A model generated the notes under the pieces. That model ran no database searches. It was not told where the DNA came from and saw nothing but the letters and a program-made list of their open reading frames with translations. This document shows positions 2,712 to 8,493 of a stretch of DNA of 51,567 nucleotides, piece after piece (the stretch's first letter is position 1; each line of letters starts with the position of its first letter). The translations under genes were made by a program, and so were the position numbers. This DNA is from an uncultured bacterium (lineage in GTDB: Bacteria; Cyanobacteriota; Vampirovibrionia; Gastranaerophilales; Gastranaerophilaceae), in contig CASDXV010000008.1 of the NCBI GenBank assembly GCA_949285255.1, positions 1 to 51,567 of the forward strand, read 5' to 3'.

Positions 2712-4169
2712 ATGAGTTTTAAAAGAGGGTTTAAACTTTTTGTAAGTTTATTTGCATTTATGGTTTTATGCCAAAGTGCTCATGCTTCTAAGCTCCCGAT
2801 TGAAGTTTGGGAATATATAAAAGAGCAATTGCCCTCATCAACCCAGCGTTTTGACTCGGTGGTTGTTGTATCACCGGATGTTATGTATATACCTTTATAC
2901 CCTGCTCAAACAAATGCGGTTAATAATTTAAAGATTGAATATACATATCCAAACGGAAAAACTCTAAAAGACAAACCTGAAATTGTTGTTTTTAACAATA
3001 ACTTTGTACTTTTAAAACTCTTTAAAGATAAAAAAGGCGACTACACTCTTACAAGTTATGAAGATTTCCCTATGAAAGTTAAACTCGGAGTTATGCCTCA
3101 GGATATGCTCGTACCGCCCGGGCTTAAGATGCCGGAGAATTTAAAACTTGTTTTAGGGGACCTTGTTATACCCTCAAAAAACGAGGGCAATCTTGTTTAT
3201 TTGACAAAAGATAAAAAAGACCCCTCAGAAACTCTTATGAAAAACGAGTTTATTCCGCTTAGTGAATTTAAAAATAAAAAAACATACCTTACGACAACAA
3301 ATTCTAAGTTTATGTTTGTATATGATGATAGTTCAAAATCCCCTTTATATGAGCTAAAACTGAGCGCCTTGCCCTCTAAAATCGTTGCATCAAATTCTAC
3401 AAAATTTGCTCTTGTAGTTTATTTTGCAAATAAAAATCTTGAAATTATTGACCTTAAAAATGAAAGAATTTTAACTCAAATTCCTTTGGATGATATTGCA
3501 AAGGATGTTGATATAGACGCAAATTCAAATATGGCGTATGTAAGTTCGCAAAATGCAAATACAATTTATTGCGTAGATTTAAACTCGGCAAGGTTAGAGC
3601 GCGCCATAAGACTAGAACAGTCACCATCTCGTTTGGCAGTTTCAACTGATGGGGGTTCAATTGTCTTTGTAGACGGCGTTTCAGGCGAACTTTTTACCCT
3701 TAAGCTCGGTGAAAATACTCAAGTAAACCCTGTAGCCAAGGTAAAAAACATCTCAAAAGTTATGTGTGATAATAACTTTATTTATGCAATATCAAGAACG
3801 CAGAATAAAATGTATGTGTATGACAGAAACACGCTTGCTCTTGCAGATGAAGAAAACCTCAATGAAAAACCGGTTGACGCTATTATGTATCAGGGCAAAA
3901 TCTATATTCTTTGTGCCAAAGAAGGCGTGCTTGAAGTGTATGACAGTGAAAAGAAAAAAATAATACTCTCAACTCAGCTTGATAAAGACGGTTTTTATTC
4001 AAAAATAACTCTTGTGCCTGACCAGCATAATGTTATTATAACAGGTGTAAATTCAAAGAAATTTTTGCTCTACGACCTTGAAAAAATGACTCTTATAAAA
4101 AAACAGCCTGCGCTTATCGATGTTTCAAATATTGTAATTATGGATAAGACTCCTGTTCAGGATTTGTAA
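2712..4169 (+). CDS. Secreted beta-propeller-like protein of unknown function
   Basis: The 485-residue product begins with a clear signal peptide (basic start, hydrophobic core, likely cut after AHA near residue 26), so it is exported. The second half holds repeated beta-strand units of the kind seen in YVTN/WD-like propellers: IIDLKNERIL, NMAYVSSQNANTIYCVDL, SRLAVSTDGGSIVFVD, MYVYDRNTLAL and LLYDLEKMTL, spaced about 40-45 residues apart. The first 200 residues look like beta-sandwich and match nothing I know. There is no lipobox or C-terminal anchor. It follows dnaJ by 8 bp and precedes the methyltransferase by 1 bp, so it is probably in the same transcript. Secretion and a propeller fold are well supported. 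The ligand is unknown. Confidence 0.8.
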   Translation: MSFKRGFKLFVSLFAFMVLCQSAHASKLPIEVWEYIKEQLPSSTQRFDSVVVVSPDVMYIPLYPAQTNAVNNLKIEYTYPNGKTLKDKPEIVVFNNNFVLLKLFKDKKGDYTLTSYEDFPMKVKLGVMPQDMLVPPGLKMPENLKLVLGDLVIPSKNEGNLVYLTKDKKDPSETLMKNEFIPLSEFKNKKTYLTTTNSKFMFVYDDSSKSPLYELKLSALPSKIVASNSTKFALVVYFANKNLEIIDLKNERILTQIPLDDIAKDVDIDANSNMAYVSSQNANTIYCVDLNSARLERAIRLEQSPSRLAVSTDGGSIVFVDGVSGELFTLKLGENTQVNPVAKVKNISKVMCDNNFIYAISRTQNKMYVYDRNTLALADEENLNEKPVDAIMYQGKIYILCAKEGVLEVYDSEKKKIILSTQLDKDGFYSKITLVPDQHNVIITGVNSKKFLLYDLEKMTLIKKQPALIDVSNIVIMDKTPVQDL

Positions 4170-7523: not shown

Positions 7524-7548
7524 GATTTTATAAAGTTAATAAAATTAC

Positions 7549-7579
7549 TAATAGAATGTCCCTATCGGACATTCTATTA
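7549..7579 (+). promoter_or_regulatory. 13-bp perfect hairpin in the rpmG leader
   Basis: Bases 7549-7561 pair perfectly with 7567-7579 around a 5-nt loop (CTATC). No T-run follows, so it is not a normal terminator. It stands 27 nt before the GGAG site of rpmG, inside the predicted leader. It may be an mRNA stability element or a protein-binding site, or it could be an inverted-repeat DNA operator. Confidence 0.6.
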
Positions 7580-7618
7580 ATTAGAAGATATATTACACCC
7601 CTACACAAAGGAGAAGAA

Positions 7619-7786
7619 ATGGGTATAAAAGGCAAAAACGACAAGATGGTTGTACTGGCATGCGAAGAATGCAAGGAAAGAAACTATACAACTACAAAAA
7701 ACAAAAAAACTCTTAAAGAAAGAATGGAACTTAGCAAATACTGCCCAAGATGCCAAAGACACACAACTCATAAAGAGACAAAATAG
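7619..7786 (+). CDS. rpmG: 50S ribosomal protein L33
   Basis: L33 is a small structural protein of the large subunit. The product has 55 residues with two CxxC pairs (CEEC and CPRC), that is, the zinc-binding C+ form, and the [13 protein letters not shown] ending is typical. A longer frame runs upstream to 7556, but the GGAG at 7610-7613 fixes the ATG at 7619, and homology also begins there. It opens the classic rpmG-(tRNA-Trp)-secE-nusG-rplK-rplA order. Confidence 0.96.
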
Positions 7787-7803
7787 TTACAATTGTAGCT
7801 TAA

Positions 7804-7997
7804 GTTCAGTTGTGAGTGGACCGTCGGGTCCGCGATAGTTCAAAAATATGTTCTACCAACTGAACGGGTTGACAAGTTAATAGTTTAGGTTGCGTCCTTA
7901 GTTCAGTTGCGAGTGGACCGTCGGGTCCGCGATAGTTCAAAAATATGTTCTACCAACTGAACGGGTTGACAAGTTAATAGTTTAGGTTGCGTCCTTA
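7804..7997 (+). repeat. Two tandem 97-bp repeats with tRNA-Trp 5' fragments and an inverted D-arm
   Basis: Copy 1 (7804-7900) and copy 2 (7901-7997) differ at one base (T7813/C7910). A third copy starts at 7998 and is the real tRNA-Trp, shared only for GTTCAGTTG. Each unit contains GTTCAGTTG, an inner 7-bp hairpin (GTGGACC/GGTCCGC with loop GTCG) and GTTCTACCAACTGAAC, which is the exact reverse complement of the tRNA D-arm (7998-8013). It ends with the tRNA's first nine bases, GCGTCCTTA. The unit can fold as a long hairpin closed by GTTCAGTTG/CAACTGAAC. No protein-coding frame is credible. Together with the tRNA and the right-hand repeats it fills the 473-bp gap between rpmG and secE. Confidence 0.9.
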
Positions 7998-8061
7998 GTT
8001 CAGTTGGTAGAACGTCGGTCTCCAAAACCGGATGTCGAGGGTTCGAGTCCTTCAGGGCGCG
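7989..8061 (+). tRNA. tRNA-Trp (anticodon CCA)
   Basis: The 73-nt cloverleaf has acceptor stem GCGTCCT (7989-7995) with AGGGCGC (8054-8060, one G-U) and discriminator G. The D-arm lies within 8000-8013. The anticodon stem TCGGT/ACCGG holds the loop CTCCAAA (anticodon CCA). The T-arm has GAGGG, TTCGAGT and CCTTC. The 3' CCA is not encoded. Its place just before secE is the conserved bacterial position. Unusually, it is flanked by tandem repeats made from parts of the same tRNA. Confidence 0.93.
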
Positions 8062-8062
8062 A

Positions 8063-8209
8063 TTTTAAGAAAACGGTTTCGGTATCTGCGCAAAAGCGCG
8101 TGTCGAAGGGACTTCAAGTCCATCAGGATACAATTTAAGAAAACGGTTTCGGTATCTGCGCAAAAGCGCGTGTCGAAGGGACTTCAAGTCCACAAGGGCG
8201 CGATTTTAA
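8063..8209 (+). repeat. Two tandem 70-bp repeats with degenerate tRNA-Trp 3' halves
   Basis: A 59-nt block at 8064-8122 recurs without change at 8134-8192 (period 70). Each copy has a GCGC-AAAA-GCGC hairpin, then TGTCGAAGGGACTTCAAGTCC, which looks like a mutated T-arm (the tRNA has TGTCGAGGGTTCGAGTCC). The second copy ends with AGGGCGCGATTTTAA (8195-8209), identical to the tRNA 3' end and tail at 8054-8068. The first copy ends differently (AGGATAC), which could pair with its own GTATCT to give a small tRNA-like fold. No plausible reading frame or promoter is seen. Confidence 0.85.
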
Positions 8210-8259
8210 TAAGTTTCTTGGCAAAAAAATAGTCCGTATTAAGAAATAAGGCAAATATA

Positions 8260-8493
8260 ATGGCAAATACACCACAAAAAAAACAAACATCAGAAAATAA
8301 CATTTCGTTTAAAGAAAGTTTCATAGCTTACTTTAAAGGAGTTAAGGCTGAGTGGGGAAAAATCTCTTGGCCTCAAAAAAATCAAATCATATTTGAAACA
8401 GGTGTAGTTCTGTTTGTGGTAATTGCTTTTACAATAATTGTATATCTTATGGATATCATATTTAAAGGTATATTGGGGCTTCTGCCGCATTAA
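8260..8493 (+). CDS. secE: Preprotein translocase subunit SecE
   Basis: SecE is the clamp subunit of the SecYEG protein-conducting channel in the inner membrane. The 77-residue, single-spanning form is normal for most bacteria outside the enterics. It has the conserved amphipathic helix with VKAEWGKISWP before one membrane helix (about residues 47-68). The ribosome site is weak (AAGG upstream). It lies between tRNA-Trp and nusG, the conserved location; its partner secY is at 34638 in this window. Confidence 0.95.
   Translation: MANTPQKKQTSENNISFKESFIAYFKGVKAEWGKISWPQKNQIIFETGVVLFVVIAFTIIVYLMDIIFKGILGLLPH

Follow-up and report, generated by a model that had tools for sequence, protein, structure and literature searches.

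Why should a tRNA gene be preceded by tandem copies of parts of itself? The question is raised by a tRNA-Trp gene of an uncultured bacterium of the family Gastranaerophilaceae, located in a stretch of 51,567 nucleotides that was analysed as a whole and is called the window here. The gene row around the array comprises a T2SSE-type ATPase gene, which we take to be pilT-like, followed by rpmG, tRNA-Trp(CCA), secE and nusG. A preliminary description had placed two 97-bp repeats, differing at one base and in register with the tRNA gene, at positions 7804 to 7997. The array, the single difference (T/C at unit position 11) and the register, with the tRNA gene continuing the array, are all borne out, while the coordinates were off by one and actually run from 7803 to 7996. 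TRF assigns the 97-bp array a score of 401 with 99% matches; the remaining three arrays of the window score 52 to 61. The features of the locus are the following.

7619–7786, plus strand: rpmG (ribosomal protein L33), upstream of the array (Pfam PF00471, E 8.2e-22)
7803–7899, plus strand: 5′ unit 1, 97 bp, with partial D-arm copy, hairpin, antisense D-arm and leader
7900–7996, plus strand: 5′ unit 2, 97 bp, one base unlike unit 1
7891–7909, plus strand: T′, copy of tRNA-Trp positions 1–19 (TGCGTCCTTAGTTCAGTTG), across the join of units 1 and 2
7913–7930, plus strand: apical hairpin of unit 2, 7 bp, loop GTCG; within the genus, three pairs changed on both sides
7850–7865, minus strand: antisense D-arm copy of unit 1, 16 nt
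7947–7962, minus strand: antisense D-arm copy of unit 2, 16 nt
7963–7987, plus strand: leader adjoining the tRNA, with a loose match (TTGACAAGTTAATA) to the unit-associated motif
7988–8062, plus strand: intact tRNA-Trp (CCA); Rfam bounds 7989–8061
8064–8133, plus strand: 3′ unit 1, 70 bp, with anticodon-arm antisense-like stretch (by eye), hairpin and copy of the tRNA 3′ part
8134–8203, plus strand: 3′ unit 2, 70 bp, six bases unlike 3′ unit 1
8087–8100, plus strand: hairpin TGCGCAAAAGCGCG of 3′ unit 1; second copy at 8157–8170
8260–8493, plus strand: secE, the downstream gene (Pfam PF00584)

Each 97-bp unit is composed of a partial tRNA 5′ end, a 7-bp hairpin, an antisense D-arm and an AT-rich leader. 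Hereby, the contents described earlier, i.e. GTTCAGTTG, the GC-rich 7-bp hairpin and the inverted D-arm, are found in place, and both antisense copies are perfect reverse complements of tRNA positions 7998–8013. The copy of the tRNA 5′ end that had been ascribed to each unit is complete across the unit join, whereas its acceptor part is missing before unit 1. A mirrored 3′ array, absent from the preliminary description, follows the tRNA gene as two 70-bp units (8064–8203), in which the 3′ part of the tRNA is repeated together with a hairpin and, as judged by eye, a stretch resembling an antisense anticodon arm. The complete window array is predicted to fold with unusual stability (z = −7.5); in its best fold the second antisense copy pairs with the D-arm of the tRNA (pairing read by eye). 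No known RNA family was found for the units, as Rfam matches tRNA alone in the window at gathering level; permissive scans of 7700–8300 and of six loci likewise gave nothing else at its gathering score. Upstream of rpmG lies a 15-bp inverted repeat (7547–7581), which resembles a minus-strand terminator and is present in several congeners, too.

The genus comprises 15 genomes, of which 13 were compared at the Trp locus, without G004, where a partial match lies at a contig start, and without G011, where sequence search found no match to the locus. A search of the clade, which had been proposed as a check, recovers the Trp 5′ unit in 12 of these 13 genomes. The same arrangement is present in eight public contigs assigned to Candidatus Gastranaerophilales, to uncultured bacteria and, in one case, to Candidatus Galligastranaerophilus intestinavium. 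In the thirteenth genome (G012) the 5′ side is unit-free and scar-like; its reading as a clean empty site was rejected, since comparison with G009 points to a likely loss scar. Copy numbers differ as well: the window genome (G000) has two 5′ and two 3′ units, while G013, 98% identical to it over the matched stretch, has one and three. The 3′ units are missing in G003, G008 and G012, and sister species provide sites with and without the 3′ unit (L016 vs L020). Two further genera show the same layout with another hairpin sequence (L025, L033).

Among 11 aligned Trp units (10 distinct), 98.1% of the structure cells are paired, and the apical hairpin, which differs among species with paired changes, has both sides changed in three pairs; 9 of 16 pairs are invariant. 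The covariation score was reached by none of 500 shuffles, but for two of the five measures some shuffles did as well: the number of pairs changed on both sides was at least as high in 11 of 500, and further pair types were equalled by 293 of 500.

The arrangement is not restricted to tRNA-Trp. The window genome is a draft of 1.6 Mb in 43 contigs (92% complete), and all of its 30 tRNA genes were tested for antisense stretches of at least 11 nt to their own first 40 nt within 200 nt upstream, using comparisons with tRNAs for other amino acids as swap control. Antisense to the own tRNA was found 5′ of 14 of the 30 genes, compared to 10 of 834 swapped comparisons, and 3′ of 4 of the 30, compared to 2 of 834. 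For six other genomes a subset of the tRNAs was tested per genome. With the controls in brackets, the 5′ and 3′ counts are 10/22 (13/444) and 3/22 (2/444) in G014, 5/24 (16/522) and 5/24 (4/522) in G006, and 4/27 (5/674) and 9/27 (22/674) in G019. No such antisense was found on either side in G033 (0/8; control 0/52 for each side), in G108, a member of the same family with 5 contigs (0/29; 0/776), or in G045, a member of the same order with 3 contigs (0/31; 0/888). Since G108 and G045 are devoid of them, the antisense units are no general order-wide feature. The recurrence of own-tRNA antisense exceeds chance, and the idea that the pattern is unique to the tRNA-Trp gene at secE is rejected in view of its recurrence at other tRNAs of the same genome and its presence on the 3′ side as well. 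A different kind of copy is seen at Asp and Pro-cgg of G045 (L261, L270) and at His and Asp of G108 (L249, L245), where direct copies of the tRNA 3′ end of 11–18 nt, without antisense of at least 11 nt, lie 170–190 nt downstream; these could be integration scars.

A search for direct and antisense copies yielded 57 distinct units in these seven genomes. In a typical unit, read toward the tRNA, one tRNA end is followed by one or two hairpins, often by the own-tRNA antisense, then by a leader or terminator and finally by the intact gene. In most units the truncated tRNA end stops in the D-loop or T-loop region; the 5′-side units end in a leader and several 3′-side ones in a terminator-like hairpin. 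Hereby, the antisense crosses the stop point of the truncated copy in many units, elsewhere it covers the missing part only, and in L336, L343 and L345 no clear antisense was discerned by eye. At Ile-gat of G019 and at Thr-ggt (L294) the truncated copy continues past the hairpin and then folds back (by eye). Unit sizes are about 70–110 bp, and unit plus leader measure 97 bp at Trp and 91 bp at Val-tac. As judged by eye, the 3′ units at Glu and Pro-ggg of the window genome and at Phe of G019 lie beyond a terminator-like hairpin.

How closely the units are related to their own gene is best illustrated by Ala-tgc, which differs between G014 and the window genome at two of the first 30 nt, and for which the G014 unit contains the matching copy and the matching antisense. 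In this comparison, the antisense follows the local tRNA sequence. Of 49 units with an orthologous tRNA elsewhere, 42 would mismatch at least one orthologue, a count that is biased because units were defined by exact match to their own tRNA, so that Ala-tgc remains the direct case. Val-gac and Ala-ggc, which are neighbours in G013 (L145, L166), have an identical upstream unit sequence in G000 (L083, L089), and this sharing suggests an exchange of units between tRNA arrays.

The leader contributes a further common part. The motif TGAMARTTDAATA, scored within 45 nt upstream of the tRNA, was found at 16/30 tRNAs of the window genome, 7/22 of G014, 6/22 of G006, 8/27 of G019 and 4/8 of G033, and it is rare in the genomes without antisense units, G108 (2/29) and G045 (1/31). 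G033, with the motif at 4/8 tRNAs and antisense at 0/8, is the weak point of the link between motif and units. A general tRNA promoter or boxA-like signal is not supported in view of the rarity of the motif in the tRNA leaders of G108 and G045.

Several units of the relatives contain a hairpin of the form ACTCTGCCGA-stem-GAGAGG, which is conserved in structure. The pattern matches 271 of 288 family genomes with 0–86 matches each, whereby overlapping matches are partly counted twice, as applies to at least six elements of the top genome. Outside the family 4 of 23 genomes have a match, and the reversed-pattern control gave one (G181) among the matches listed. Copy number varies within genera, with 0 in G108 and 41 in G170 (genus g7) and with 0 in G205 and 38 in G138 (genus g14). 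Pairing was assessed for 66 distinct copies, where it holds in 481 of 528 outer stem cells, compared to 43–53% when slid, and was reached by 0 of 1000 permutations; the stem sequences themselves are highly variable. The exact pattern has no match in the window genome, where a near match lies at tRNA-Met and the hairpins of the other units are shorter, of the form CCGA or CGA-stem-GA. Based on inspection by eye, we place these shorter hairpins in the class found in the relatives.

Altogether 92 deduplicated hairpin copies were examined, of which 60 have a tRNA within 350 nt and 32 do not, a split that is biased since some loci were chosen for a tRNA; the 32 lie at contig ends, in dispersed repeats and in a 5S rRNA-like copy (L318; by eye). 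Among the tRNA-proximal copies 58 of 60 are oriented toward a tRNA; 47 of these are located upstream and share the strand of the tRNA, while the other 11 are located downstream and on the opposite strand. In 48 of 60 cases the left flank of the hairpin matches the end of that tRNA over 9 nt or more, compared to 18 of 819 comparisons with other isotypes, whereby the tRNA best matching the left flank was used if several were near. Within the partial tRNA copies, the hairpins sit in the D-loop, the anticodon-loop or the T-loop (by eye). At L318 (G095:C3) the hairpin is found inside an apparent partial 5S rRNA copy, and 5S genes may therefore be targets in the same way as tRNA genes. The extent of the duplication was determined at 24 loci where no earlier unit was recognised. 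It comprises 8–20 nt of tRNA plus 0–6 nt of flank in 14 of them and includes 10–92 nt of flank in 10; the longer flank duplications may partly conceal decayed earlier units. In G083 (L320, L327, L332, L341, L348), modular repeats that start near TGTCCGAGAAAG are dispersed, with hairpin inserts nested in some of them.

What, then, are these repeats? With a probability that we place slightly short of even, they are copies of a family of small insertion elements, non-coding and equipped with a hairpin, whose targets are the arm loops of stable-RNA genes. Insertion is the reading that best fits four observations: the hairpins face a tRNA whether they lie 5′ or 3′ of it, the copied parts are specific to each tRNA, one hairpin is shared, and copy number is patchy. 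It is further supported by the recurrence over the swap control, the hairpin positions in loops, the stem covariation, the two repeat copies of G132, the relatives devoid of antisense units and the sister-species sites with and without 3′ Trp units. Insertion would be strand-polar and would duplicate the gene end 5′ of the insertion point, leaving a complete gene downstream of the insert, so that the hit would be harmless. Tandem arrays would expand and contract by repeated insertion or unequal recombination. The antisense might be copied from the local gene during the insertion event or, alternatively, might be retained since the truncated copy thereby folds into a closed hairpin. The tRNA-specific antisense and truncated parts and the lack of a fixed element body are arguments against insertion, and the great variation of the stem sequence is an argument against a single transposon. 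Further points against insertion are that no mobilising gene was found, that 10 of 24 loci have duplicated longer flanks, that the unit-free 5′ side of G012 resembles a loss scar rather than an original empty site, that the G132 repeat copies are unlike beyond the hairpin, that the exact hairpin pattern is missing from the window genome, and that G033 has the leader motif without antisense. The earlier suggestion of a tRNA-derived mobile or regulatory repeat is correct as to the tRNA-derived part; we favour its mobile version, and the regulatory one persists as a rival. Serial duplication of the tRNA leader, which had also been put forward, is too simple, because units occur at the 3′ side as well and include hairpins and antisense, and because the leader motif is rare in unit-free relatives.

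A more far-reaching version of the insertion reading appears unlikely to us, though with a real chance of being correct. It states that a tiny hairpin element enters tRNA and 5S rRNA genes at their loops, irrespective of the strand, while copying local sense and antisense sequence, and rebuilds an intact gene ahead of it, so that essential genes are invaded without cost, which would make it a categorically new kind of genome parasite. In the excerpts of the open-licence literature among the matches listed, no description of a repeat system like the one seen here was found. If the insertion reading as such holds, the essential tRNA genes of one bacterial family are struck repeatedly by a small element that brings its own rule of repair. 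Enzyme and substrate would then become a clear mechanistic question, and insertion into essential genes without harm could be studied in a system provided by nature.

Alternatively, the units could be degenerate tandem tRNA genes that are kept as structured RNA and transcribed together with the tRNA, with hairpins and antisense locking the partial copies or forming a switch that competes with tRNA folding. The covarying stems, the near-constant Trp unit of the genus, the antisense that tracks local changes at Ala-tgc, the stable fold with its pairing between second antisense and tRNA D-arm, and the size of unit plus leader, which at Trp and Val-tac is about that of a tRNA gene with its leader, all speak for this possibility. 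We nevertheless consider it rather unlikely, given that several 3′ units (Glu, Pro-ggg, Phe of G019) lie beyond a terminator-like hairpin, that a relative of the same family (G108) and one of the same order (G045) manage without antisense units, that copy number is volatile within genera and that the hairpin is also present in dispersed repeats with no tRNA found near. The match of both sense and antisense parts to the local tRNA, as well as the foldback layout at Ile-gat (L283) and Thr-ggt (L294), would also be in line with a mutational process, in which replication stalls at tRNA genes and template switching and foldback synthesis generate tandem partial copies with inversions. In yeast, template switching is reported to give rise to gene amplification (PMC11790251). 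Such a process leaves unexplained why a shared hairpin with fixed ends is present in 271 of 288 genomes and is oriented as it is, and why relatives with the same tRNAs have no antisense units; we regard it as improbable.

An assembly error, named in the preliminary description as the main alternative, is highly improbable because the unit is present in 12 of 13 genomes, in contigs that belong to different projects by their titles, and with species-specific hairpins showing paired changes. Moreover, some long contigs contain arrays in their interior, as is the case for L014 in a contig of 401 kb. What could be held in favour of an artefact is that such arrays are hard to assemble and that 9 of the 30 tRNA genes of the window genome are no more than 350 nt away from a contig end, compared to 0.62 expected; the contigs concerned are C2, C9, C11, C23, C25 and C32. 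This excess suggests that the arrays trouble short-read assembly, and unit numbers are therefore uncertain in any MAG. Both the number of tRNAs and the completeness determined for such MAGs are probably biased, and their tRNA sets probably under-counted.

Several known systems resemble the insertion elements envisaged here in part. As in REP/RAYT systems, short palindromic hairpins are present in many copies (up to 86 matches per genome), and in G132 a Y1 transposase gene is flanked by a repeat with the hairpin in one copy. Unlike in these systems, the stem sequence is free, the units copy host tRNA, and 18 of 24 genomes show no Y1 gene. REPs carry a GTAG tag according to an excerpt of PMC3733652. 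Many of the hairpin copies studied here are followed by GGTAG, which is tRNA D-loop sequence as well, and others are not (by eye). Rickettsia palindromic elements and other miniature palindromic inserts are small hairpins inside genes with no known enzyme, and the small hairpin inserts described here, for which no enzyme was found, are similar in this respect; to our knowledge, neither targeting of tRNA loops nor duplication of a target end is known for the Rickettsia elements. The 178-bp repeats distal to E. coli tyrT follow the tRNA gene in tandem, and part of the tRNA 3′ end recurs in every repeat, which is reminiscent of our 3′ units, although the latter belong to a system of many loci and both gene sides. 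The tyrT repeats concern one locus and its 3′ side, and we know of no antisense copies or shared hairpin family there. Integrative elements at tRNA genes usually are kilobases long and encode an integrase, and recombination restores the 3′ half of the gene. In a comparable manner, ARAGORN identifies a tRNA ahead of 58 of the 60 tRNA-proximal copies, where restoration is presumed. The present units differ in that they measure 70–110 bp, leaving no room for an integrase gene, and in that they affect both gene ends by duplication. The intervening sequences (IVS) of rRNA genes are patchy hairpin inserts in loops of stable-RNA genes, located within a functional gene; our hairpins also lie in stable-RNA loops, but an intact gene adjoins the hit copy in the loci read.

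Other origins were considered and rejected. The core motif of integron attC-like sites was not seen by eye. Ideas of a group I intron guide, a bridge RNA or a TnpB guide are not supported, since in several units the antisense covers the missing part only, as at Thr-cgt, Lys-ctt and Ile-gat (G019). A phage or plasmid origin is not supported either, as the matches (best 20 of 81 for phages and best 20 of 70 for plasmids) cover the tRNA portion of the query and little beyond it. No phage or plasmid record covers 80% of the query among the matches listed, and one hairpin sequence searched against plasmids gave no match. Viral contigs contain at least 120 stretches with the hairpin pattern; among the matches listed, 7 or more of the 8 outer stem pairs are formed in one (L381), compared to 92 of 114 matches at other loci (repeats of the same DNA included); the viral matches thus look mostly like chance. 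L381 (IMGVR_UViG_3300011008_000426, 3448–3493) is a well-paired hairpin on a viral contig for which ARAGORN reports no tRNA.

Searches for Y1 transposases and reverse transcriptases across 24 genomes did not reveal a mobilising gene. Y1 transposases are present in 5/12 high-copy, 1/8 zero-copy and 0/4 other genomes (6/24 overall) and were found neither in the window genome (92% complete) nor in 7 of the 12 high-copy genomes, while reverse transcriptases are present in 4/12 high-copy, 4/8 zero-copy and 1/4 other genomes. As driver, both are unsupported by this occurrence. In G132 a Y1 (IS200-like) transposase gene lies between two similar copies of a repeat (95% over 125 bp, with further, shorter stretches), of which the first has the hairpin and other extra sequence and the second does not. 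The copies differ beyond the hairpin alone; at this site the hairpin behaves as an insert, because only one of the two similar repeats has it. At this locus (L351; G132:C13, 1140–2200) the gene is RAYT-like with 181 codons and has the repeat with TTTCATATAGTCAACTGACCCCGAC on both sides, and similar stretches are found at other loci of the same genome (L321, L333, L338).
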